Assembly: GCF_006016075.1 (NCBI RefSeq)
Contig: NZ_CP040093.1
Location: 744,001-808,000 of the forward strand
Source of the DNA: Caloramator sp. E03
Lineage (GTDB): Bacteria; Bacillota; Clostridia; Clostridiales; Caloramatoraceae
Direction: 5' to 3'
Length of the DNA stretch: 64,000 bases
Shown here: positions 7,832 through 20,387 of the stretch, piece after piece
Layout of the letters: every line of letters starts with the position of its first letter
How positions within the stretch are numbered: the first letter of the stretch is position 1
Notes under the pieces: generated by a model
Databases searched by the model: none
What the model was told of the DNA's origin: nothing
What the model saw: only the letters and a program-made list of their open reading frames with translations
Translations under genes and position numbers: made by a program

Positions 7832-9102
7832 TGTTTAAGCAACTTAGGAATAAATTTCTTATTCTAAACCTAATTATAATATCAATAATGATGTTTATAT
7901 CCTTTGGAGCAATTTACCTTATAACATATCAGAGCATACGTAGTAGAGTGTATGAAGAACTAATAGATGTTTCAATGTTCTATGGCAAAATGGATGAAAA
8001 TTTTACACCACCAGAATTAACTATAAAAGTACCTCATCATAAAAAGCCTGGAAAGTTTGAAAATATATCAGAGCGTTCAATTTCTTTTTCACTGCTTACA
8101 GACAAGCAGTATAATATTATATCTAAATTATCAACATTTAATATAGATGATGCTCTCTATGAAAATGCACTAAAGAAAATACTATCGCAAAACAAATCTA
8201 TAGGTACCTTTAAAATAGATGAAAATAATTGGGCTTATGTAATTAATCCTATAACAAATGGATATAGGATTGTTTTTATTGACATTACTTCCGAGCAACA
8301 GATTTTATCAAGCATGATATATACATTTATTTTAGTAGCTTTCATTATGCTAATTGTAATTTATTTTATAAGCAGATTTTTTGCAAACAAAGCTATAAAA
8401 CCGGTTAAAGAAGCCTTTGAAAAACAACAGCAGTTTATTACAGATGCATCTCATGAGCTTAAAACTCCTCTTACTGTAATAAATACAAGTGTAGATGTAC
8501 TTTTATCTAATAGCAGCGACACAATTAGCAGCCAGTCAAAATGGCTTTATTATATAAAATCAGAATCTGAAAGAATGGCTAAATTAACAAATGACCTTTT
8601 ATATCTTACGCAAATGGATACATCTAATAATAAAATGTTTTTTTCAAATTTCAACGTAAGCGAAATTGTAGAAAATGTTATTTTGACTATGGAGGCAATA
8701 ATATTTGAACATAATATTTCTTTAAATTATACTATAGAACCTAATTTGATAACTTTTGGAAATAGCGATCAAATAAGGGAAGTTGTTATGATACTTTTAG
8801 ATAATGCTATAAAATATACCAATAATTCAGGCTCAATTAATGTTTCCCTAAAAAAACACAATAATAATATATTATTAACAGTAACTAACACTGGTAAGGG
8901 AATTCCTGAAGAGGATTTAGAAAAAATTTTTGACAGATTCTATCGCATAGATAAGTCACGTTCACGTAATAGCGGCGGATATGGTTTGGGCCTTGCTATT
9001 GCAAAAGCAATTATAAATCAGCATAAAGGTAAAATATATGCTAAAAGCATTATAAATGAGAAAACATCCTTTTATGTTGAACTACCATTTGTTCATTCAT
9101 AA
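7831..9102 (+). CDS. Sensor histidine kinase
   Basis: A 423-residue membrane kinase translationally coupled to the response regulator. Two helices (about 10-32 and 161-182) bracket an extracytoplasmic sensor region of about 125 residues without a domain I recognise; it includes HHKKPG and is Lys-rich. The HisKA domain carries His208 in ASHELKTPLTVI, and the ATPase domain shows the N box (LLDNAIKYT), G1 (NTGKGI), F box (FDRFYR) and G2 (GGYGLGLAIAKAI). There is little room for a HAMP domain between helix 2 and the H box. The signal may relate to the redox operon divergent to it, but nothing in the sensor sequence shows what is sensed. Confidence 0.92.
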   Translation: MFKQLRNKFLILNLIIISIMMFISFGAIYLITYQSIRSRVYEELIDVSMFYGKMDENFTPPELTIKVPHHKKPGKFENISERSISFSLLTDKQYNIISKLSTFNIDDALYENALKKILSQNKSIGTFKIDENNWAYVINPITNGYRIVFIDITSEQQILSSMIYTFILVAFIMLIVIYFISRFFANKAIKPVKEAFEKQQQFITDASHELKTPLTVINTSVDVLLSNSSDTISSQSKWLYYIKSESERMAKLTNDLLYLTQMDTSNNKMFFSNFNVSEIVENVILTMEAIIFEHNISLNYTIEPNLITFGNSDQIREVVMILLDNAIKYTNNSGSINVSLKKHNNNILLTVTNTGKGIPEEDLEKIFDRFYRIDKSRSRNSGGYGLGLAIAKAIINQHKGKIYAKSIINEKTSFYVELPFVHS

Positions 9103-9144
9103 AATATAAGCCTTTGAAGATGAATCTTCAAAGGCTTATATTTT
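9101..9144. terminator. Bidirectional terminator, kinase / dehydrogenase
   Basis: A perfect inverted repeat of about 20 bp (AAAATATAAGCCTTTGAAGA and its complement, loop TGAA) ending in T-runs on both strands lies between the convergent kinase and dehydrogenase genes and overlaps both stop regions. Confidence 0.9.
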
Positions 9145-10399
9145 ATTTCCAATTTTCAAGCAGGTATCTTTCTGCTTCTTTGCACCAAAGTCCATTATTT
9201 CTTTTTACTATTTCTGCAAGCTTTTTAAAGTGTGGATTTGTTTCACCCTTTTTCTCAAAATCATCTATTGCAGTAAGTTCCATATTTATATGTGTATAGA
9301 TAAGTTTCTTTCCTCCAGGAATACCTGGTAAATTTAAAACAGTATCTGCAACTGAATCAATTCCCCCTATATGTGTTACCATAACTGCAGGATTAATAAG
9401 TCCTTTTTCTGTCATTTTTAAAGCTTCAATAAGATCATCAGTATTTCCACCTGTTGTTCCCATTACATGGGTATAAGAATAGTGAACGTTATAGAGATTA
9501 ATTTTAGCAGAAAAATTTGTATCGGTAGGTCCTGCAAAAAAGTTTAAGCATCCATCTCTTCCAAGTATTTTATCGCCCTGCTCAACTACTTCTGAAACAG
9601 GGGCAAAGACAAATACATCATCATATCCCTTGCCGTCTGTTAATGATCTTAAATATTCAACAGGATTGTCTACTTTTTTTGTATTTACAAATATTAACTC
9701 AACATTACATCTTTTAGCTTCCTCTTCAGTAAATATCTGTCTTGCCCTTTTTAATCTTTCTTCATCAATGTCTGTAACAACAAGCTTTCCAGGCCTTCTA
9801 TCACAATGAAGAGCATAATCTATGGCTCCAAGTCCCATAGGTCCTGCCCCTGCAAGTATTGCCATATTACCTCCTTCTACGATGCCCATCTTGTGAACAT
9901 AGTTTCCCATTTCAGTATGATAATTTGCATGGAACGCTCCTATAATACAAGACATTGGCTCAGCAAGCGAAGCTTCATAGTATGCTTCTCCATTGTATTC
10001 TAATAAACATCCTATTTCCATAACTTCTTGAGGTATTATATTATATGTGGCATCTCCTCCAAAATACATATAAGAATATCCTGGAGACCACATAGTTCCT
10101 TTGTAGTTTAACGCTGGTTGAAGTGCAAACTTGCTTCCTTCTTTAAATTTGTCCTTCCACTTTGAACCTACTTTTATGATGTTACCTGCAAACTCATGTC
10201 CTATTATTATTGGATTTTTATCTACATCCTGTGGAACTCTTTTATGTCTTTTGCCTTGAATTACAGCTTTATAAGTAGACATACATACACTATCTGAAAT
10301 TACTTCAACTAATATTTCATCATCCTTTATTTCAGGAAGTTCAAACTCTTCAAGCCTTAAATCATTTTCCCCATATAGTCTTACTGCTTTTGTTTTCAT
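9143..10399 (-). CDS. Zinc-dependent dehydrogenase, sorbose-1-phosphate reductase-like
   Basis: A 418-residue medium-chain dehydrogenase. Catalytic zinc ligands are visible as Cys39 and His68-Glu69 (GHEFAG), and the Rossmann motif is AGAGPMGLGAID. The four-cysteine structural-zinc lobe usual in alcohol dehydrogenases is absent between residues 85 and 115, as in ketose-1-phosphate reductases such as SorE, which the overall sequence most resembles. It is the last gene of the mannitol-type PTS operon and occupies the place of mtlD, so a hexitol phosphate is the likely substrate. Oxidation of mannitol-1-phosphate next to the phosphate carbon would give fructose-1-phosphate for the kinase upstream; that reaction is inference. 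AGGAGG precedes the ATG. Confidence 0.75.
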   Translation of the reverse strand: MKTKAVRLYGENDLRLEEFELPEIKDDEILVEVISDSVCMSTYKAVIQGKRHKRVPQDVDKNPIIIGHEFAGNIIKVGSKWKDKFKEGSKFALQPALNYKGTMWSPGYSYMYFGGDATYNIIPQEVMEIGCLLEYNGEAYYEASLAEPMSCIIGAFHANYHTEMGNYVHKMGIVEGGNMAILAGAGPMGLGAIDYALHCDRRPGKLVVTDIDEERLKRARQIFTEEEAKRCNVELIFVNTKKVDNPVEYLRSLTDGKGYDDVFVFAPVSEVVEQGDKILGRDGCLNFFAGPTDTNFSAKINLYNVHYSYTHVMGTTGGNTDDLIEALKMTEKGLINPAVMVTHIGGIDSVADTVLNLPGIPGGKKLIYTHINMELTAIDDFEKKGETNPHFKKLAEIVKRNNGLWCKEAERYLLENWK

Positions 10400-10421
10400 C
10401 TTTATACCTCCTAATCAACAA

Positions 10422-11345
10422 TTAACTTATGTTTACCATATTCTTATATTTCAATATGTCTTCAATTTTTGGTGGTTGAGTCCCTGGTGATGCAACATTT
10501 GCAGTTGCTGCAGCAACTGCAAGAGAAGCGGAATTTTCAAGGTCATATCCTTTTTCAATAGAATACGCAAGAGCAGCTACCATAGAATCCCCAGCTCCAA
10601 CAGTACTTTTTACATCAACAGAAATCCCTTTTACTCTTAATACCTTTTCTCTACTTACAAAAACTGCACCATCTTCTCCAAGAGATACAACAACTACTTC
10701 AATTCCATAATCTAAAAGTGATTTAGCAGAGCTAATAACATCGTTAATATCATTTATTTTTATATCTAAAATCCTTTCAAGCTCATTAACATTTGGTTTT
10801 ATAACGTATGGACCAGCTTTTATTCCTTCCTTTAAAAGTTCTCCATCAGCATCAAGAAGAACCTTTACCTTATAATCCTTTGCCTTCTCAATCCATTTTT
10901 TATAGATATCCTTTTTAACATTACATGGCACACTTCCTGCAAGAACAAGTATTGAATCCTCTTTTAAATCATTAAATATCTTATTCTCTAACATCATCAA
11001 ATCATCACTTGATACTTCATTTCCTGGCTCGTTTATATCAGTATTTGTATTATTAATTTTATCTACAACTTTTAAGTTTATCCTTGTTTCTCCATTTATA
11101 AATACAAAATCATTTTTTATATCTAATCCATCAAGATAATTTTTAACAAATTGTCCATTTATCCCTGCAAGAAAACCTGTTGCAATGCTATCTCCATTTA
11201 AAACCTTAATAACCTTTGATACGTTAATGCCTTTGCCTCCAGCATCAAGCATAATTGTTTTTATTCTATTTACTGAATTTATTTCAAAATTATCAATTTC
11301 AACAGTCTTATCAATGGCTGGGTTTAATGTTACAGTTTTAATCAT
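10422..11345 (-). CDS. 1-phosphofructokinase / tagatose-6-phosphate kinase family (PfkB)
   Basis: A 307-residue PfkB-family sugar-phosphate kinase. It begins TLNPAIDKT, has DAGGKGINVS at about 34-43 for substrate binding and the C-terminal GAGD (250-253) with catalytic base Asp253. Length and motifs match FruK and LacC, which act on fructose-1-phosphate or tagatose-6-phosphate to give a 1,6-bisphosphate. Its start overlaps the stop of the EIIA gene (TAATG), so the two are translationally coupled. Inside a mannitol PTS operon with a zinc dehydrogenase and no mtlD, fructose-1-phosphate is the most economical substrate, but this rests on context. Confidence 0.8.
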   Translation of the reverse strand: MIKTVTLNPAIDKTVEIDNFEINSVNRIKTIMLDAGGKGINVSKVIKVLNGDSIATGFLAGINGQFVKNYLDGLDIKNDFVFINGETRINLKVVDKINNTNTDINEPGNEVSSDDLMMLENKIFNDLKEDSILVLAGSVPCNVKKDIYKKWIEKAKDYKVKVLLDADGELLKEGIKAGPYVIKPNVNELERILDIKINDINDVISSAKSLLDYGIEVVVVSLGEDGAVFVSREKVLRVKGISVDVKSTVGAGDSMVAALAYSIEKGYDLENSASLAVAAATANVASPGTQPPKIEDILKYKNMVNIS

Positions 11346-11785
11346 TAGTTATCACCTTCTGTTAAAATATTAAGTATTTCATCTTTAGATTTTGCTTTTA
11401 CAAGTTTTTTAACATTATTCTCATCCTGACAAACAAGTGCAATATTTGAAAGTATATTTATATGCTCGTCCCCAACCCCAGCAATTCCAATTAAAATATA
11501 TGCAATATTCCCATCTCCAAAATCAACTCCATTTGGATACTGTGCTACAACTATTCCAGATTTTTTTATAAATTTAATATATTCTGATGTCCCATGTGGA
11601 ATTGCTATTCCATTTCCAATATATGTTGTTACTTCATCTTCTCTTTTTCTCATACCTTCAATGTATTTATCTTCTACATATCCATTATCTTTTAAAATAT
11701 TTCCTACCCTTTCAATTGCACTATATTTATCCTCAGTTTTTAAATTTAATAATATATTATTTTCATTCAATATATGCTTTTCCAA
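11345..11785 (-). CDS. mtlF: PTS mannitol/fructose-type EIIA component
   Basis: A 146-residue cytoplasmic phosphocarrier that passes phosphate from HPr to the EIIB domain of the MtlA-like permease. The phospho-histidine is His64 in GIAIPHGTSEY, the signature of the mannitol/fructose EIIA family. The start is TTG at 11785, seven to eight bases after AAGGAGG; the site lies inside the last codons of mtlR, so translation is coupled. It sits between the regulator and kinase genes, the normal mtlF position. Confidence 0.9.
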   Translation of the reverse strand: MEKHILNENNILLNLKTEDKYSAIERVGNILKDNGYVEDKYIEGMRKREDEVTTYIGNGIAIPHGTSEYIKFIKKSGIVVAQYPNGVDFGDGNIAYILIGIAGVGDEHINILSNIALVCQDENNVKKLVKAKSKDEILNILTEGDN

Positions 11786-13837
11786 TTACATCTCCTCCTT
11801 ATTTATTATATCTACAAGTTTATTTCTAATATCAATTATATCTCCAAACCTTAATGCCTTAGTAAATTCATTATCTTGTACCATTGCAATGCTTATTTTT
11901 CCTAATGTTTCTAAAATATAGCTGCTTTCATTCTTTCTTGCAAGCATAACTAAAATAGTATCTACATTTTCTTTTACAACTCCTACTCCATTCATTTCGA
12001 TAAAATTTTCAAGTCTATATGCTCCTAAATAAGGAGATTCGATTTCTTCTGTCCTTATATGAATAAGGGCAGTATGGCTTCCTGGTACTACTACACTTCC
12101 TTTTTCTTCTCTCTTTCTAATCTGATATTCCACTATTTCTTTTTTATTTATTGTATTTGATTTATAAAGATCATCTACAATTTTAATAATTACATCATTT
12201 ATACTGTTTCCAGATATATTTCTAAGTCTAAAATTCTTCAATATATCATCAGCCAAAATAAAATCATCTCGACTTTCTGATTTTTCATCTTTATAAAATG
12301 GTATAAATAGATTTTTTATATTTTTACCTTCAGATTTTGCTTTGATTAATGAATTTATTTTTTCAACATCATCGTTTTGTAAAAAAGGTGAAATTACAGC
12401 TATATTTTCATACTTTTTATTTATTTCTACCGTTGAAAGGATTATATCGTAATCTTCTTTTATTTTTTCATCCATCTCTCTTAATGAGCAAACATCTATT
12501 TCATTAATCTCTGGAAACCTGTTTTTAATCTTGTTACATAATATTTTTGCAGTACTTATTCCATTAGGGCATACAATTAAAATCTTAAGGTTTTCCTTAA
12601 ACTTACTTTGCCTTTCAATTGCTGCACCTATATGCATAGTTATATAGCCAACTTCGCTATATGGAACAGAAATGTTGTACTTTGAAAAAACAAGCTTGCA
12701 GGCATATTCAACTGTATCAAAAAGCTCCCTATAATATTCTCTAATCTCGTTTATTACAGGATTTCTAATTTCAAGTCCTAATGTAAGTCTGTAAATTGCT
12801 GGATTTAAATGCTGTTTTAACCCTGCCATAAGCTGATTATCGCAATGTAAATAAATATTAAGTCTTTTTGATACTATGTTTATTATTTCATTAATCAAAT
12901 CTTCAATATCAAACCCAAATTCCATATTTTCTTTGTTTTCGCTTAAATTTATATTTTCATCTCCATTTAAGTGAATTGCAAGATAAGCAAGTTCACCCTC
13001 AGGAAGTTTTATTCCATTTTTAATAAATATTTCATCAATGCTTTTTGCTAAATTTCCTCCTTTTAAAGAAAATGCATTTTTTATGAAATGTTCAGGAAGT
13101 TCAATAGCCATATTATTTTCTGTTCTTTCAATTGATAGCAAAATGTGTATGAAAGCACTGAAATAGCTAATATCATTATCCTTTAATATATTTTTATTAT
13201 TATAAAATTCCTTTATAATGTTTTTTGCCTTTAAAATCAAATCATCACCAAACGTAATTTTAAAAAAACTATTCAGCATATAGTCATTGCTGTCTTCATA
13301 TAGATATGATAAAAGCTCAATAATGGAATTATAATCATATAAAAGTTCAACAAAAGCATTTCTTTTGTTCCATTCTGAACCAATAACCTGAATTCCATAC
13401 CCTCGTTTTCTTATTAATTCTAAATTCTTCAATTTAAGATAACTTTCAATTTTATCAAGATAAAACGTAATAGTACCCTCTACAACATTAAACTGATAGC
13501 TAAAAAAAGCAGCTTTAATCGGCTCCTTTGCAAGAAGAAGTTGAGCTGTAATTAATAATTGCCTTTGTTCCTGTGTAAGCATCCATAAGAGTGGTATTTC
13601 ATCAAACATTTTTTTTACTTTTTCAATATTTTCGGTGCTTCCATTTAATTGAATCTTACCACCACAATCTGAAATTCTAAGATTATACTGCTTTATAAAA
13701 CTATTTATTGAAGAAATCTCTCTAAGAATAGTTCTATCACTAACATCGATTTGTTGAGAGAGGCCCTTAATATCTAAAGGGCCTTTCTCTATAAGACTGT
13801 TTAATATAAACTTTTGTCTTACAGTTAAACTCTCCAT
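11786..13837 (-). CDS. mtlR: PTS-regulated transcriptional activator, MtlR type
   Basis: A 683-residue regulator of the BglG/MtlR class. An N-terminal winged helix (LTVRQKFILNSLIEKG, then VSDRTILREIS) is followed by a second helix-turn-helix region and two PRD domains (about 190-410) with the expected His residues (AYLAIHLNGD, YITMHIGAAIE). Then come an EIIB-like domain (ILIVCPNGISTAKIL) and an EIIA-like domain (VVPGSHTALIHI). Phosphorylation of these by PTS proteins sets activity in known MtlR proteins. I chose the ATG at 13837 (AGG ten bases upstream); a TTG at 13858 overlapping the mtlA stop has no ribosome site. It probably binds the inverted repeat at 15338-15360 ahead of mtlA. Confidence 0.87.
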   Translation of the reverse strand: MESLTVRQKFILNSLIEKGPLDIKGLSQQIDVSDRTILREISSINSFIKQYNLRISDCGGKIQLNGSTENIEKVKKMFDEIPLLWMLTQEQRQLLITAQLLLAKEPIKAAFFSYQFNVVEGTITFYLDKIESYLKLKNLELIRKRGYGIQVIGSEWNKRNAFVELLYDYNSIIELLSYLYEDSNDYMLNSFFKITFGDDLILKAKNIIKEFYNNKNILKDNDISYFSAFIHILLSIERTENNMAIELPEHFIKNAFSLKGGNLAKSIDEIFIKNGIKLPEGELAYLAIHLNGDENINLSENKENMEFGFDIEDLINEIINIVSKRLNIYLHCDNQLMAGLKQHLNPAIYRLTLGLEIRNPVINEIREYYRELFDTVEYACKLVFSKYNISVPYSEVGYITMHIGAAIERQSKFKENLKILIVCPNGISTAKILCNKIKNRFPEINEIDVCSLREMDEKIKEDYDIILSTVEINKKYENIAVISPFLQNDDVEKINSLIKAKSEGKNIKNLFIPFYKDEKSESRDDFILADDILKNFRLRNISGNSINDVIIKIVDDLYKSNTINKKEIVEYQIRKREEKGSVVVPGSHTALIHIRTEEIESPYLGAYRLENFIEMNGVGVVKENVDTILVMLARKNESSYILETLGKISIAMVQDNEFTKALRFGDIIDIRNKLVDIINKEEM

Positions 13838-13854
13838 AAAATCACAACCTGATA

Positions 13855-15261
13855 TCAATTTTTTATACTTTTTATAAATTCATCATAAGCTGATTGATCA
13901 AGGAAATTCTTTATTTTAACGATTTTAGCATTAGGTACAACCTGTGCTGCTCTTTGTGCAAGGCTCTCCTGTGTAAATACAACGTCTGCATTTTCAGGTA
14001 TCTGATTTACTGCAGCATGTTTAACTTCTATTTCAAGGCCTGCATCTTTAATCTTTTTCTTAAGTATAGATTCTCCCATTGCTGAAGAACCCATACCAGC
14101 ATCACATGCAAAAACAATAAGTTTAGGCATGTTTATTTCTATCTTTTGTCCTTTACTTTCAGCTTTCATATTGGCAACCATTCTCTTTGCATCATCAAGT
14201 GAATCGTATTCTGATTCATCTCCACTTCTTTTTATAATTACTGAAGCAATTGCAAAAGATACTATTGCCCCAACTGCAATACCTGAAATAACAGGTAAGA
14301 AACCTCCTTTTGGAGTCATCGCAAGTTCTGCAAAGATACTTCCTGGAGATGGAGTTGCTACAAGCCCTGCCTTTGTTATTACAAATGTTAAGTCAGCTGC
14401 CATTCCTCCTCCAATTACTGCAAGAAGAAGTAGAGGCTTCATCAATATATATGGGAAATAAATTTCATGAATTCCACCAAAGAAGTGGATTATAATAGCA
14501 CCTGGTGCTGACTGCTTTGCTGTACCTTTTCCATAAAGCCAGTACGCAAGTAATACTCCAAGACCTGGTCCTGGGTTCGTTTCAAGAAGGAAAAATATAG
14601 ATTTTCCAACTTCTTTAGCCTGTTGAATACCAAGAGGTCCTAAAATTCCATGGTTAATTGCATTGTTTAAAAATAATACTTTTCCTGGTTCAATAACTAT
14701 TGATATTAATGGTAATAGTTTTGCATTTGTAACTGCTGTTGCAAAACTTCCAAGTGCTGTAGAAAAGCCTTGAACTACTGGTTCAACAACTGTATATGCA
14801 AGTAGAGCTAGAATTCCGCCAAGTATTCCTGATGAAAAATTGTTAACAAGCATTTCAAAACCTGTTGGTACTTTTCCTTCTACAAGCTTATCAAATTTTT
14901 TAATCGCCCATCCACCAAAAGGTCCCATTATCATTGCACCAAGAAACATAGGAATAGAAGAACCAACTATAATTCCAAAAGTTGCTATTGCACCTACTAC
15001 TCCTCCTCTTACATCGTAAACAAGCTTACCACCTGTATAACCTATTAGTATAGGGAGAAGATAAGTTATCATTGGGCCAACCAACTTCCCAAGATACTCA
15101 TTAGGAATCCACCCTGTTGGGATGAAAAATGCAGTAATCAATCCCCACGCGATGAACGCTCCAATATTAGGAATTACCATTCCTGCCAAGAATCCTCCAA
15201 ATTTTTGGATTCTTGCTTTTGTTTTAGAAGTATTTTTTAAAGCTGTAGTATTTTGTATCAT
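13855..15261 (-). CDS. mtlA: PTS mannitol-specific EIICB permease
   Basis: A 468-residue membrane permease that imports and phosphorylates a hexitol, most likely mannitol. The EIIC domain (about 15-345) has several helices and the substrate-site motif GGIHE (262-266). The EIIB domain (about 378-468) carries the phospho-cysteine Cys386 in [13 protein letters not shown]. Length and order match the split type in which EIIA is a separate protein (mtlF here). First gene of the operon mtlA-mtlR-mtlF-kinase-dehydrogenase; GGAGGGGG precedes the ATG. The annotation as mannitol rather than another hexitol rests on overall similarity to MtlA. Confidence 0.93.
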
Positions 15262-15290: not shown

Positions 15291-15319
15291 ATAATAAGGC
15301 AGAAGCTCTTGTGTTTCAA
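15291..15319 (-). promoter_or_regulatory. mtlA promoter
   Basis: On the minus strand TTGAAA (15319-15314), a 17-base spacer and TATTAT (15296-15291) form a good sigma-A promoter about 30 bases upstream of the mtlA start codon. Confidence 0.7.
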
Positions 15320-15337: not shown

Positions 15338-15360
15338 TTGTCATGAATCTTCAATGACAA
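15338..15360. promoter_or_regulatory. Candidate MtlR operator
   Basis: TTGTCAT-N9-ATGACAA is a perfect 7-bp inverted repeat centred about 30 bases upstream of the mtlA -35. Its half-sites resemble the TTGNCACA arms of known Firmicute MtlR sites, though with wider spacing. The position suits an activator. Confidence 0.55.
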
Positions 15361-15488: not shown

Positions 15489-16775
15489 CTATTCTTCATA
15501 TATTCTTATAACATTTTCAACACTATTTATTCCTTCTAAAGCTTTTATTTCTTCTAATGAATTGACTATTTGCTTATGCTTTGCTTCATGAGTTATAAAA
15601 ACAAGGTTTACATTATGCTCTTCTAATACATCTTGTGTTACTGACAATATACTTACATTATTATGTCCAAGTATTGCTGCTATCTGTCCTAAAACACCTG
15701 GCTTATCTTTTACATTAAGCCTTACGTAAAATTTTGATACATAATCATTTGAATCTTTAACATTCATTTTATGGTTATTATTTTCATATTGAACAAAAGA
15801 AGTATTGTTAAAATTGCTCCTTATTATTGAAATCACATCGCTAACTACTGCACTCCCAGTAGGTAGATCCCCTGCTCCTCTACCACAGAACAGTAAATCA
15901 CCAACTGCATTACCTCTAATATATATTGCATTAAAAGAATCTCTAATATTTGCTATTGGATGATTTTTATTAATCATTGCCGGATGAACTCTAAGCTCCA
16001 AACTACCTTTTTCCTCCTTTGCTATGGCTAAAAGTTTAATAGCATATCCAAATTTTTTTGCATATTCAATATCGGTTGATTTTATTTTTGTTATGCCCTC
16101 TCTATATATTAAATTTACATTAACAGGTGTATTAAAAGAAAGAGATGACATAATTGCAAGTTTATAAACTGTATCATAACCTTCAATATCTAATGTAGGA
16201 TCTGCTTCAGCATATCCAAGCCTTTGTGCTTCCTTTAATGCATCTTTAAATTCAACACCATCCTCTGTCATTTTGGTTAAAATATAATTTGTTGTGCCAT
16301 TAACTATACCAATTATCTCTTTTATTCTATTTGCAGTTAAACTTTCATTTATGCTGCGTATTATTGGAATACCTCCTCCAACACTTGCTTCATAGCAAAT
16401 CATAACATTATTATCATTTATCACTTTAAAAATCTCTTCTGCATGATTTGCAACAACAAGTTTATTTGCAGTAACAACATGCTTTTTTAATCTTGCAGCT
16501 TCTAATATATATTCCTTTGCAGGATTTTCTCCACCAATTAATTCTAAAACAATTTTTATTTCTTCATCATTAAAAATCTCATTAGGATTCGTTGTTAAAA
16601 TATGCTTCGGAACATTAACTTCTCTTTTTTTATTTACATCTCTTACAAGAATTTTTTTAATTTCAATCTCATGACCACATTTTAAAGCTATTTCTTTCAT
16701 ATTTGAGTTTAATATTTTCCATACTCCTTGACCTACAGTTCCAAAACCTAATAATCCTATTTTAATTTTCTCCAT
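15489..16775 (-). CDS. hom: Homoserine dehydrogenase
   Basis: A 428-residue NAD(P)-dependent enzyme reducing aspartate semialdehyde to homoserine. It has a Rossmann N-terminus (GLLGFGTVGQGV), the catalytic dimerisation domain (GIVNGTTNYILTKM, AEADPTLDIEGYD) and a C-terminal ACT domain from about residue 345 (VKDKPGVLGQIAAILG) that usually mediates threonine feedback. I chose the ATG at 16775, nine bases after AAAGG; ATG codons at 16784 and 16781 are too close to it. Last gene of the operon thrC-thrB-lysC-hom and followed by a clear terminator. Confidence 0.95.
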   Translation of the reverse strand: MEKIKIGLLGFGTVGQGVWKILNSNMKEIALKCGHEIEIKKILVRDVNKKREVNVPKHILTTNPNEIFNDEEIKIVLELIGGENPAKEYILEAARLKKHVVTANKLVVANHAEEIFKVINDNNVMICYEASVGGGIPIIRSINESLTANRIKEIIGIVNGTTNYILTKMTEDGVEFKDALKEAQRLGYAEADPTLDIEGYDTVYKLAIMSSLSFNTPVNVNLIYREGITKIKSTDIEYAKKFGYAIKLLAIAKEEKGSLELRVHPAMINKNHPIANIRDSFNAIYIRGNAVGDLLFCGRGAGDLPTGSAVVSDVISIIRSNFNNTSFVQYENNNHKMNVKDSNDYVSKFYVRLNVKDKPGVLGQIAAILGHNNVSILSVTQDVLEEHNVNLVFITHEAKHKQIVNSLEEIKALEGINSVENVIRIYEE

Positions 16776-16788
16776 AACCATCATCCTT

Positions 16789-17994
16789 TCAGCTTATTTT
16801 TTTGTCATTTATTTCATTTTCAACATTATCAATAAAAACATCATGTAATAAGTTTACTGCAGCCTTTGCATCTTCTTCCTTTACAAGGCACCATATAGTT
16901 GTATGAGAATCAGCTGTTTGAAGCACTTTAATATTTTTACTTCTTAGTGCTTTTAATATCGTTGCCATCACACCTGGCACTCCTCTCATTCTATTTCCAA
17001 CTACTGCTACTTTGCTACATCCCTGTATTATTTCAAACTCAATATTTAATTCTTCTAATATATTTTTAACTTTTTTTTCATCACATTCATTTATTGTAAA
17101 TACTTTTTTCTCTGGAAATATGTTAATCAGATCTATGCTTATATCGTTATCAGCCAAAATCTCAAATATATCATCATTTTCACAGTTAATAGTTACCTGT
17201 GATATTTTATTCGTACATGCAATACCAGTAATTAAATTATCATTATTAGAAACAAAATTTGCTATTAAAGTACCCTTTTCATTTGAAAGAGTATTCTTTA
17301 TTAAAACAGGGACATTTCCTTTCATTGCATATTCAACAGCTCTGGGATGTATTACTTTAGCTCCTTCCTGTGCAAGTCTAAACACTTCATTATAGCTGAT
17401 TTCATCTATTATCTTTGCATCTTTAACCATATTAGGATCTGCTGTCATAATTCCATCAACATCAGTATAAATCTCAACAAATTCTGCATTAAGTGCAGCT
17501 CCTAAAACTGTTCCTGTAATATCGCTTCCTCCTCTTCCAAGGGTTGTAAACTCTCCTTTTTTTGTTGCACCTTGAAATCCAGTAACAATTGGAATCATAC
17601 CACTTTTTAATGTATTTATTATATCTTCAACTCTCATATCGATAATTTCTGCATTTCCAAAATTATCATTAGTTATAATACCTGCTTGAAATCCAGTAAA
17701 AACTTTTGCTTTATATCCCTTTGATGCAAATACATCCGACAATATAACAGATGAAATAATTTCTCCACAGCACATCAATAAATCAACTTCTCTTTTATTT
17801 AAACTATCCTTTTCATTAATTAAAGATAAAAGTGTATCTGTAGCATAAGGATCTCCTTTTCTTCCGATTGCAGAAACTACAACTACTGGGCTAAATCCTT
17901 TATTGATTGCTCCAATTACTTTATCAACAACCATTTCTCTCCTTTTAGCTGTTGATACTGAAGTACCGCCAAATTTTTGTACTATAATCTTCAT
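16789..17994 (-). CDS. lysC: Aspartate kinase
   Basis: A 401-residue kinase for the first step of the aspartate family pathway. It starts with KFGGTSVSTAKRR, has the GRGGSDITGT motif at about residue 155, and ends in two ACT domains (from about 265; VAVVGNRMRGVPGVMATIL) that in this family bind lysine and/or threonine. Placement within the threonine operon behind threonine T-boxes suggests an isoform tuned to threonine supply, but the ACT ligand cannot be read from sequence. It lies between thrB and hom with short gaps. AAGGTG precedes the ATG. Confidence 0.94.
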   Translation of the reverse strand: MKIIVQKFGGTSVSTAKRREMVVDKVIGAINKGFSPVVVVSAIGRKGDPYATDTLLSLINEKDSLNKREVDLLMCCGEIISSVILSDVFASKGYKAKVFTGFQAGIITNDNFGNAEIIDMRVEDIINTLKSGMIPIVTGFQGATKKGEFTTLGRGGSDITGTVLGAALNAEFVEIYTDVDGIMTADPNMVKDAKIIDEISYNEVFRLAQEGAKVIHPRAVEYAMKGNVPVLIKNTLSNEKGTLIANFVSNNDNLITGIACTNKISQVTINCENDDIFEILADNDISIDLINIFPEKKVFTINECDEKKVKNILEELNIEFEIIQGCSKVAVVGNRMRGVPGVMATILKALRSKNIKVLQTADSHTTIWCLVKEEDAKAAVNLLHDVFIDNVENEINDKKIS

Positions 17995-18014
17995 ATTATA
18001 TCACCTTCATTCTA

Positions 18015-18902
18015 TTAATTTCTTATAATATTCGCTCCTTGTTTATCAATATTTAGTTCTTTTAAAAGCCAGTTACTATTTATGCCTTTTAAAAAGCCCC
18101 CCATTTTATTAACAAAGAATTCATCATTTCCCCTTAAAACAGCCATAATAGTTGGACCTGCTCCACTTAAGAACACTCCTATTGCTCCATATTCATAGCA
18201 TTTTTCAACTATATCATCATAATTTGCAATTAATTTTTTTCTGTATATTTGATGCATCCTATCTTCAAGGGCATATTTTACAAAGTCAAAGTTTCCATTT
18301 ACAAGAGAAGAAATAAGAAGAGCTGTTCTGCCAATGTTATACACACCATCACTAAAAGATATTTCCTTTGGAAGTACTTCTCTTGCCTTTTTGGTCGAAA
18401 GCCTAAAATTAGGAATCAATGCACAAAACTTTATATTATCCAATATATTTATTTTTTCAAATATAACATTTTCATCCTGCATTATTGAAACAGTCATTCC
18501 ACCAACTATGGCAGGAGTTGTGTTATCAGGATGCCCTTCAATTTTTGCAGCAATATTTATTATATCTTCTCTTTTTAATATGCCTCCAGATAGTTCATTA
18601 GCAGCCATAACACCTCCAACTATGCATGATGCGCTACTTCCAAGTCCCCTTGAAACTGGAACATTCCCTTCTATTTCAATTCTTAATCCTTTTGGCTTAT
18701 AACCAATAATTTCAAAGGTTTTAATCATAGATGAATAAATCATATTATTTTTATTTTTAAATTCATCTTCACATCCTAATATTTCAACACCATTTTCAAT
18801 CTCTTCAACTTTAAAACTATTATACATATTAAGTGCAATTCCCAAACAATCAAATCCTGGACCTACATTTGCACAAGTTGCTGGAACTCTAACTTTTATC
18901 AT
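18015..18902 (-). CDS. thrB: Homoserine kinase
   Basis: A 295-residue GHMP-family kinase that phosphorylates homoserine for ThrC. The ATP loop VPVSRGLGSSASCI (about 82-95), the N-terminal VRVPATCANVGPGFDCLG and the C-terminal LSGAGPTIMAV motif are all present, and the length is normal. The gap to thrC is four bases; GGAGG in the thrC end region serves the ATG at 18902. Cytoplasmic, second gene of the operon. Confidence 0.95.
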   Translation of the reverse strand: MIKVRVPATCANVGPGFDCLGIALNMYNSFKVEEIENGVEILGCEDEFKNKNNMIYSSMIKTFEIIGYKPKGLRIEIEGNVPVSRGLGSSASCIVGGVMAANELSGGILKREDIINIAAKIEGHPDNTTPAIVGGMTVSIMQDENVIFEKINILDNIKFCALIPNFRLSTKKAREVLPKEISFSDGVYNIGRTALLISSLVNGNFDFVKYALEDRMHQIYRKKLIANYDDIVEKCYEYGAIGVFLSGAGPTIMAVLRGNDEFFVNKMGGFLKGINSNWLLKELNIDKQGANIIRN

Positions 18903-18905
18903 AAA

Positions 18906-20387
18906 TTAAACCTCCAAATAACTTTCAATTATATTCTTCATGTCTTTTTTATTACATGAAATCTTATGAATAACAGGCTTATTTTCAAGTTCTTTAATTC
19001 TTTTTGGTACTTTAATATTCGATAACTTTGATAAGCACTCAACAGCTTTAAAATCATCTAAATCCTTAGTATCAACATTTAAAGCCTCTAAAACACTATT
19101 TGAAAATTTAAATGGACTTGCAGTTGAGGCTATTATTGTTTTTCTATCATCCATAGTATCTTTTACATAATTTTTATAAACAGAATAAGCAACAGCAGTA
19201 TGAGTATCTATTACATATTCATAAGTCTTATAGACTTCAAAAATTGAATATAAAACTTCATCCTCTAATACGTATCCCGAATAAAAATCTGAAAGATTTT
19301 CATTCATCCTACTATCAATTACATACTCTTTTTTTCTATTAAGTCCTTGCATAAGCATTTTAACAACTTCAGTATCTTTGTTGCTTATTTCATACAAAAG
19401 TCTTTCAAGGTTACTTGAAATTAGTATATCCATGGAAGGTGAACTTGTAAGTTTAAGCTCACGCTTTGCATCGTATACTCCTGTTTTAAAGAAATCATAA
19501 AGTACATTGTTTTCATTAGAAGCACATATAAGTTTATTTATATTAATCCCCATCTTTTTTGCATAGTAGGCAGCAAGTATATTTCCAAAATTTCCAGTAG
19601 GTACAACTATATTTATACTATCCTTTGGTGTTATCTTATTTTTTCTAACAAGATCCAAATATCCATAAACATAATAAACTATCTGTGGTAACAGTCTTCC
19701 TATATTTATTGAATTTGCAGATGATAACATATATCCATTTTTTAATAATTTGTCATTAAAATCCTTGTCATTAAAAATATCCTTTACTCCACCCTGTGCA
19801 TCATCAAAATTACCTTTAATTCCAACTACGAAGGTGTTATTTCCATTTTGAGTTATCATCTGCCTTTTTTGAATAAAACTAACTCCATCTTCCGGATAAA
19901 ATACAATAATATTAGTGCCTTCAACATCTGCAAAGGCCTCAAGTGCAGCTTTACCTGTATCACCAGAGGTTGCGGTAAGAATTACAATTTTTTTATCAAT
20001 TCCATTTTTTTTAATTGAAACTTTTAAAAGGTGAGGCAAAAGTGATAATGCCATGTCTTTAAATGCAAGAGTAGGTCCATGATAAAGCTCAAGAAAAAAC
20101 ATATTATCACATTCAGAAATTCCAATAATAGAATCCTTTTCAAACTTATCATCGTATGCCCTTTGAATACATCCATAAAGTTCATCATCATTAAAATCCG
20201 TTAAAAATTTTTTAAGTATATAAAAACACAATTCGTGATATGTCATATTTTTAAGTTCTTCTATAGGTTTATCGATTTTAGGTATTTCAACAGGTACATA
20301 AAGTCCCCCATCATCTGCAATACCTTTTATTATTGCTAAACTTGAAGTAATAAGATTTTTATCCCCACGTGTACTTTTGTAATACAT
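18906..20387 (-). CDS. thrC: Threonine synthase
   Basis: A 493-residue PLP enzyme converting O-phosphohomoserine to threonine. It begins MYYKSTRG, has the PLP lysine in GPTLAFKDMAL and the SGDTGKAALEAF phosphate-binding region, and matches the longer type of threonine synthase. It is the first structural gene after two tandem threonine-type T-boxes, so its expression should rise when tRNA-Thr is uncharged. AAGGAGG precedes the ATG. The operon order thrC-thrB-lysC-hom brings four of the five steps from aspartate to threonine together; asd is elsewhere (53086). Confidence 0.95.
   Translation of the reverse strand: MYYKSTRGDKNLITSSLAIIKGIADDGGLYVPVEIPKIDKPIEELKNMTYHELCFYILKKFLTDFNDDELYGCIQRAYDDKFEKDSIIGISECDNMFFLELYHGPTLAFKDMALSLLPHLLKVSIKKNGIDKKIVILTATSGDTGKAALEAFADVEGTNIIVFYPEDGVSFIQKRQMITQNGNNTFVVGIKGNFDDAQGGVKDIFNDKDFNDKLLKNGYMLSSANSINIGRLLPQIVYYVYGYLDLVRKNKITPKDSINIVVPTGNFGNILAAYYAKKMGININKLICASNENNVLYDFFKTGVYDAKRELKLTSSPSMDILISSNLERLLYEISNKDTEVVKMLMQGLNRKKEYVIDSRMNENLSDFYSGYVLEDEVLYSIFEVYKTYEYVIDTHTAVAYSVYKNYVKDTMDDRKTIIASTASPFKFSNSVLEALNVDTKDLDDFKAVECLSKLSNIKVPKRIKELENKPVIHKISCNKKDMKNIIESYLEV

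Follow-up and report, generated by a model that had tools for sequence, protein, structure and literature searches.

A mannitol-type operon of Caloramator sp. E03 with a SorE/YggP-family zinc dehydrogenase in place of MtlD and a proposed route through fructose-1-phosphate

The mannitol-type phosphotransferase system (PTS) operon described here lies in a stretch of 64,000 nucleotides, hereafter the window, from Caloramator sp. E03 (contig NZ_CP040093.1, positions 744,001 to 808,000), whose 2.98-Mb genome forms a single contig and is 97.8% complete. The operon occupies the reverse strand of the window from position 15261 down to position 9143, has the order mtlA-mtlR-mtlF-pfkB-dehydrogenase and contains no mtlD. 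Sequence comparisons indicate that it is probably a mannitol operon whose MtlD has given way to an unrelated zinc dehydrogenase from the SorE/YggP family, with a proposed route via fructose-1-phosphate. The proposed pathway would be a variant within PTS mannitol catabolism, and this is the reading of the locus that the comparisons best support.

The operon, its dehydrogenase and the proposed pathway

The first gene, mtlA (13855–15261; 468 amino acids), encodes a mannitol-type enzyme II (EIICB) that exceeds the cut-offs of the mannitol IIC models TIGR00851 (523 bits; cut-off 468) and PRK15083 (667 bits; cut-off 589). It is followed by mtlR (11786–13858; 690 amino acids), which encodes an activator of the PRD type that also carries domains resembling IIB and IIA (Pfam HTH_11, Mga, PRD in two stretches, PTS_IIB and PTS_EIIA_2), and by mtlF (11345–11785; 146 amino acids), which encodes an enzyme IIA (EIIA) of the fructose/mannitol type (PTS_EIIA_2, 134 bits). 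An earlier note on this DNA, made from its letters alone, had called these three genes clear, and the cut-offs and domains bear out their identities. The note had also read the next gene as 1-phosphofructokinase-like. Its product (10422–11345; 307 amino acids; PfkB family) scores 337 bits against TIGR03828, the equivalog model of 1-phosphofructokinase (1-PFK), which has a cut-off of 292; a kinase for another substrate was rejected, as the models for tagatose-6-phosphate kinase and 6-phosphofructokinase II fell far under their cut-offs. The last gene (9143–10399; 418 amino acids; ADH_N and ADH_zinc_N) encodes the SorE/YggP-family zinc dehydrogenase, for which we propose the function of a mannitol-1-phosphate 2-dehydrogenase forming fructose-1-phosphate. 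Neighbours among the five genes abut or overlap, with a widest spacing of 22 nucleotides and an overlap of 4 nucleotides between mtlR and mtlA. One more 1-PFK above the cut-off is encoded in the genome (G000:C1:2575143-2576057); it is 52% identical to the operon kinase and lies beside an EIIA homologue.

In the proposed pathway, MtlA and MtlF would import mannitol as mannitol-1-phosphate, which the dehydrogenase would oxidize with NAD+ at C2, beside the phosphate, to D-fructose-1-phosphate instead of fructose-6-phosphate. The 1-PFK encoded just upstream of the dehydrogenase would turn this product into fructose-1,6-bisphosphate, which would join glycolysis past the 6-phosphofructokinase step. 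Biosynthetic fructose-6-phosphate would be regained via a GlpX-type fructose-bisphosphatase. Searches of the genome found two genes of this type and no match for a Bacillus subtilis-type fructose-bisphosphatase, and the Caloramator GlpX bisphosphatases, or yggF in Escherichia coli, could return fructose-6-phosphate for biosynthesis. Confidence is strong that mannitol is the substrate of the operon, and moderate both for oxidation at C2 and for flux through fructose-1-phosphate in vivo.

The direction of the proposed oxidation follows from the geometry of the hexitol phosphates. MtlD oxidizes the far end of mannitol-1-phosphate and yields fructose-6-phosphate. By the symmetry of mannitol, D-mannitol-1-phosphate is identical to mannitol-6-phosphate, which from C3 to C6 is built as sorbitol-6-phosphate is. 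The site of the SorE reaction is the carbon next to the phosphate: the enzyme acts on the pair sorbitol-6-phosphate/L-sorbose-1-phosphate, and the same pathway appears in PMC13410766. A SorE-type reaction on D-mannitol-1-phosphate would give D-fructose-1-phosphate, the substrate of 1-PFK.

The likeness to SorE had been remarked upon in the earlier note and was substantiated by tblastn, in which the dehydrogenase is 46–49% identical to SorE of Klebsiella, Citrobacter and Serratia over 99% of its length and 55% identical to E. coli YggP over 100%; it scored above no cut-off of the NCBIfam equivalog models. A DNA-level search of E. coli genomes with the dehydrogenase gene gave one short match, inside yggP. 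Residues C39, H68, E69, E147 and D210 show no variation across 30 aligned sequences and are common to SorE, YggP and more than 90% of the dehydrogenase family, the comparison group being taken without four long-branched rows (L093, L098, L099 and L100). The first four correspond to the residues around the catalytic zinc in sorbitol dehydrogenases, and D210 is taken here as a marker of preference for NAD over NADP. The structural-zinc lobe with its four clustered cysteines is absent, as the earlier note had recognized, C131 being the sole cysteine from E69 to E147. The predicted structure (mean predicted local distance difference test score 80) has the zinc alcohol/polyol dehydrogenase fold, with a best Z of 27; the model is poor at residues 97–106, 165–168 and 267–316 and served for the fold only. 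It resembles many zinc alcohol dehydrogenases about equally and indicates no single substrate.

A tree of 114 dehydrogenases contains a starred clade (Shimodaira–Hasegawa-like approximate likelihood-ratio test, SH-aLRT, 99) made up of 72 rows with MtlA on the same stretch, 8 with the kinase and without MtlA, and 2 others; these labels follow a looser rule, under which an MtlA piece of at least 90 amino acids is counted. E. coli YggP belongs to the clade, as does a homologue from Photobacterium. The remaining rows, outside the clade, comprise 28 that lack MtlA (4 of these being on short stretches), two of the sorbose type and two with long branches. This tree and those of MtlA and the kinase are quick trees without bootstrap that contain several long-branched rows; L212, L214, L215 and L220, which duplicate other genomes, and L033, which equals L204, were left out of all three.

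The surroundings of the wider family are varied. The dehydrogenase gene of one outsider (L078) is surrounded by genes for an aldolase, a short-chain dehydrogenase/reductase (SDR) and an FGGY kinase. That of another without mtlA (L077:9442-18554) stands with genes for a lipoate-dependent 2-oxoacid dehydrogenase complex, a lipoate ligase, a lipoyl-synthase-like protein and an SDR, and open reading frames matching this complex in size, the one property compared, lie beside related dehydrogenases in L076, L083, L084 and L239. A divergent MtlD-like gene, scoring at best 234 and 274 bits and below the cut-offs, occurs beside or near the dehydrogenase gene on two stretches without mtlA (L083:9104-11657 and L257:8983-12448). 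On a Lactiplantibacillus plantarum plasmid (L068; NZ_CP094382.1), a SorE-like dehydrogenase, a mannose-type PTS and an SDR are encoded between insertion sequence elements, possibly as a mobile sorbose cluster; six further L. plantarum records have the same match.

Exchange of MtlD for the dehydrogenase

The earlier note had remarked that the operon has no mannitol-1-phosphate 5-dehydrogenase, and the absence extends to the whole genome, in which the MtlD model NF002652 has no match at E ≤ 1e-30. The only match to Mannitol_dh_C is a 485-amino-acid open frame of the uxaB type in a cluster read as a hexuronate operon, and an mtlD elsewhere in the genome was rejected, as the profile searches gave just this protein. 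That cluster lies about 20 kb before the window (L002; G000:C1:718000-730000) and, as read from its open reading frames, comprises kdgK, uxaC, uxaA, uxaB and a TRAP transporter; the neighbours uxaA, uxaC and the transporter were named from this reading alone. Of 16 genomes in which the dehydrogenase gene neighbours mtl genes, 11 give matches to Mannitol_dh_C, in frames of 485–622 amino acids save one of 374 in the operon-bearing relative G020. The open reading frame at that place in G020 (368 amino acids) encodes a distant MtlD-like protein that reaches 143 bits against a cut-off of 356 and was not counted as MtlD; homologues of a PRD regulator and of IIA are encoded in the same locus.

The same exchange is seen across the phylum. 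In a draw of 398 of its genomes, MtlA was found in 43 (E ≤ 1e-60), the dehydrogenase in 30 (E ≤ 1e-30) and MtlD in 39 (E ≤ 1e-30), in 33 of these above the curated cut-off. By coordinates, the gene beside mtlA in the 43 genomes encodes MtlD in 31 (G307 among them, with an MtlD slightly below the curated threshold), the dehydrogenase in 11 (G000, G062, G130, G192, G214, G256, G293, G334, G355, G421 and G438) and neither in one (G357); no genome has both there. In none of the 11 dehydrogenase-type genomes was MtlD found anywhere, and one other genome (G400) holds dehydrogenase and MtlD about 1 Mb apart. The two gene orders, mtlA-mtlR-mtlF-mtlD (e.g., L139–L142) and mtlA-mtlR-mtlF-pfk-dehydrogenase as in the window, differ at the last slot only. 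The swap extends past the clostridia to E. coli cmtA-yggP, Photobacterium and a metagenome-assembled genome of the Fusobacteriaceae.

The transporter seems to have been kept while the dehydrogenase was exchanged, because the MtlA tree (104 rows) mixes both types. On this tree the label "dehydrogenase" changes 7 times, at least 4 of the changes being forced by starred branches, and the label "MtlD" changes 6 times, at least 3 of them so forced; shuffled labels give about 30 changes. The MtlA of the window belongs to a starred clade of 19 rows, of which 13 are of the dehydrogenase type, 5 of the MtlD type and 1 (L259) unlabelled because its dehydrogenase is more than 7 kb from mtlA. Four of the five MtlD-type proteins in this clade are 75–77% identical to the MtlA of the window.

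A palindrome upstream of mtlA, TTGTCATTGAAGATTCATGACAA (15338–15360, reverse strand), may be an MtlR operator. Its pattern, TGTCA-N11-TGACA, precedes mtlA in 7 of 66 dehydrogenase-type and 6 of 34 mtlD-type loci and in none of 3000 dinucleotide shuffles. A count made over a longer stretch, allowing a looser spacing and set against plain shuffles, gave 10 of 67 and 10 of 34; the stricter one is preferred. Mannitol is likely still the substrate of the operon, because its MtlA nests with MtlD-type MtlAs and the palindrome stands before some mtlA genes of both types. Caloramator quimbayensis, of the same genus, also has the operon (NZ_FUYH01000015.1); in its 97% complete genome the sole Mannitol_dh_C protein has 485 amino acids, and no MtlD was found. 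According to PMC6110305, which for C. quimbayensis relays the species description, this species and C. boliviensis have been noted to utilize mannitol.

Two loci of the dehydrogenase type carry two copies of mtlA (L219:3380-6418, Clostridium sp. cel8; L224:2336-8000, C. lacusfryxellense). The regulation of dehydrogenase-type loci seems to vary: a gene for a DeoR-family regulator (Pfam) adjoins the dehydrogenase gene at L244:10291-11043 and L248:6289-7050, and L237, L246 and L281 have an open reading frame of the same size in this slot. An MtlR homologue is present in L244 and is not found on the stretches of L248, L237, L246 and L281.

The 1-phosphofructokinase link and competing explanations

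The association of the kinase with the dehydrogenase was examined in 145 loci, comprising 34 of the MtlD type, 35 dehydrogenase loci taken from genomes and from plasmid records, and 76 from a named set of 80, which were the best of 359 relatives. The dehydrogenase accompanies a full MtlA at 66 of the 145, loci with an MtlA shorter than 400 amino acids being excluded, and a locus was credited with a 1-PFK where a protein's best BLAST hit (E ≤ 1e-6, at least 250 amino acids) among seven reference proteins was the kinase of the window. A 1-PFK homologue occurs at 40 of the 66 loci with MtlA and dehydrogenase and at none of the 34 with MtlA and MtlD; the gene pair pointed out in the earlier note thus recurs in mtlA neighbourhoods. 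All 40 kinase genes are no more than 250 bp away from the dehydrogenase gene or mtlA, and 36 share the strand of the dehydrogenase. The presence of 1-PFK beside the dehydrogenase and at none of these MtlD loci is expected if the dehydrogenase makes fructose-1-phosphate.

All 14 operon kinases scored with TIGR03828 exceed its cut-off, including four that are just 33–39% identical to the kinase of the window (from Lachnospiraceae, Erysipelotrichaceae, Fusobacteriaceae and G192). In the kinase tree, which carries a long-branch warning, the operon kinases are not a single group among 1-PFKs, and their label changes 4 times, at least 2 of these on starred branches. A sugar kinase (L204:2767; 39%) was left out of this tree and of the distance count, its N-terminus being that of the hexuronate-cluster kinase. 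Faecalicoccus and Faecalitalea have divergent kinases, and the idea that a fructose-1,6-bisphosphate aldolase lies next to these was rejected, since the three neighbours scanned are PHP-domain proteins (two) and a leucine-rich-repeat protein (one).

Several observations weigh against the route through fructose-1-phosphate. There is no adjacent 1-PFK at 26 of the 66 loci, although all five kinase-less mtlA-plus-dehydrogenase genomes of the draw carry one elsewhere. Counted anywhere in the genome, 1-PFK is no guide to the type (11 of 11 dehydrogenase-type genomes, 28 of 31 MtlD-type and 114 of all 398). A descent-corrected pair test on the MtlA tree found 3 independent starred pairs, with a mean of 1.8 for the association and 0 against it (sign test, p 0.5), so that few independent events stand behind the association with the kinase. 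The exact palindrome is absent at 59 of 66 dehydrogenase-type and 28 of 34 mtlD-type mtlA genes. The wider dehydrogenase family is not tied to one substrate, to judge from the settings without mtlA at L077 and L078, and the open-licence literature yielded no assayed enzyme of the mtlA-linked clade. Mannitol use is on record for the sister species C. quimbayensis and not for the strain of the window.

The missing kinases would also fit an improbable alternative, the one that fares best, in which the dehydrogenase keeps the chemistry of MtlD, oxidizing C5 to give fructose-6-phosphate, and 1-PFK is present since the same enzyme II imports fructose as fructose-1-phosphate. Also in its favor is galactitol-1-phosphate 5-dehydrogenase, a zinc enzyme that by its name oxidizes far from the phosphate and is a structural match to the dehydrogenase (4a2c), with a weak sequence match (34 bits against a cut-off of 550). 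However, 1-PFK is found beside none of the 34 mtlD-type mtlA genes despite their closely related transporters, so a leak of fructose through MtlA does not alone attract the kinase, and SorE, the nearest relative with genetic evidence, acts beside the phosphate.

Action of SorE on sorbitol-6-phosphate and L-sorbose-1-phosphate, together with the further contexts of the dehydrogenase family, raises the still less probable alternative that the operon serves another polyol, such as sorbitol or arabitol, despite its MtlA-like enzyme II. Against this stand the scores of MtlA above mannitol-specific cut-offs, its nesting among MtlAs that sit with MtlD, and the palindrome shared by some mtlA genes of both types. 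L-sorbose-1-phosphate is not known to be a substrate of 1-PFK, which counts in the same direction. So does C. quimbayensis, noted to use mannitol, in which no mtlD was found. Very improbable is a reverse reaction from fructose-1-phosphate to mannitol-1-phosphate that would dispose of reducing equivalents or protect against osmotic stress: the name of SorE is that of a reductase and fermenters need NADH sinks, but the operon has no phosphatase or exporter gene, PTS uptake and a PRD regulator indicate catabolism, and 1-PFK would compete for fructose-1-phosphate.

Known systems, flanking elements and implications

Several known systems resemble the operon or its proposed route in part. The textbook mtl operons (mtlA-mtlR-mtlF-mtlD in Bacillota and mtlA-mtlD-mtlR in E. 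coli) have the enzyme II and IIA families found in the window, and those of Bacillota also share its regulator family, its gene order and, in some, the upstream palindrome; they have mtlD, whereas the corresponding slot in the window holds the unrelated zinc dehydrogenase and 1-PFK. SorE belongs to the family of the dehydrogenase, has the same catalytic residues and acts beside the phosphate of a hexitol phosphate. Its gene is accompanied by those of a mannose-type PTS and an SDR, and the enzyme runs as an L-sorbose-1-phosphate reductase, in contrast to the operon of the window with its MtlA, and the two sorbose-type rows branch outside the mtlA-linked clade (SH-aLRT 99, quick tree). In fructose operons with fruK, a TIGR03828 kinase makes fructose-1,6-bisphosphate from fructose-1-phosphate, as proposed here; there fructose-1-phosphate comes directly from the PTS, whereas here it would come from a hexitol phosphate.

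The cmtB-cmtA-yggP-yggF cluster of E. coli resembles the window in placing an MtlA-like EIICB beside a dehydrogenase of the same clade, 55% identical. Unlike the operon of the window it has no 1-PFK, and yggP is followed by yggF, annotated as a fructose-1,6-bisphosphatase. E. coli K-12 has mtlA-mtlD besides the cmt cluster, and its yggP is annotated only as a putative zinc-binding dehydrogenase. A 188-kb IncFIA plasmid of E. coli (L067; NZ_CP137739.1) carries the chromosomal block speA-speB-loiP-tkt-cmtB-cmtA-yggP-glpX through to fbaA, in the manner of an F-prime. In Haloarcula hispanica, mannitol carbon also goes via fructose-1-phosphate and 1-PFK; uptake there is by an ABC transporter and free mannitol is oxidized to fructose, which ketohexokinase then phosphorylates, with no mannitol-1-phosphate, unlike the route proposed here (PMC11519228).

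Searches of the open-licence literature, a scope outside of which most subscription journals fall, turned up no account of the operon or of fructose-1-phosphate formation from mannitol-1-phosphate. Mannitol-1-phosphate dehydrogenase was found in extracts of Clostridium thermocellum by Patni and Alexander (1971), a strain whose purity was later doubted, as cited in PMC8091016.

Two further elements flank the operon on the reverse strand. A candidate sigma-A promoter, TTGAAA-17-TATTAT (15291–15319), lies just downstream of the palindrome; a promoter scan gave 29 matches in the region versus 32.5 by chance, and the candidate is put forward for its place only. A 22-bp hairpin with a U-rich 3' arm (9099–9146), a candidate bidirectional terminator, separates the operon from a convergent gene that ends at 9102. 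Its folding energy is -28.5 kcal/mol versus -7.2 (sd 2.6) in shuffles, and it was not among the terminators listed by a terminator scan of the region. Directly upstream of the mannitol operon, window positions 15489–20387 hold a compact threonine operon of four open reading frames read as homoserine dehydrogenase, aspartokinase, homoserine kinase and threonine synthase.

With somewhat less assurance than for the operon itself, the balance of these comparisons favors a wider claim, namely that a second, widespread PTS mannitol route (mannitol-1-phosphate to fructose-1-phosphate to fructose-1,6-bisphosphate) proceeds via a separate orthologous group of SorE-like enzymes, members of which would have replaced or been replaced by MtlD on several occasions across Bacillota, and that this route also lies behind cmtA-yggP-yggF and would give yggP its function. 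The known PTS mannitol route runs through mtlD. If the proposal is true, genomes with mtlA and the dehydrogenase, which annotation names merely a zinc-binding dehydrogenase, would use mannitol while bypassing fructose-6-phosphate and the 6-phosphofructokinase control point. It would also provide a testable function for E. coli yggP and account for the bisphosphatase gene that follows it. Mannitol is a common sugar of plants and seaweeds, and research on thermophilic clostridia is considering that of brown seaweed as a feedstock (PMC6110305), so that the pairing of dehydrogenase and kinase could have practical use.

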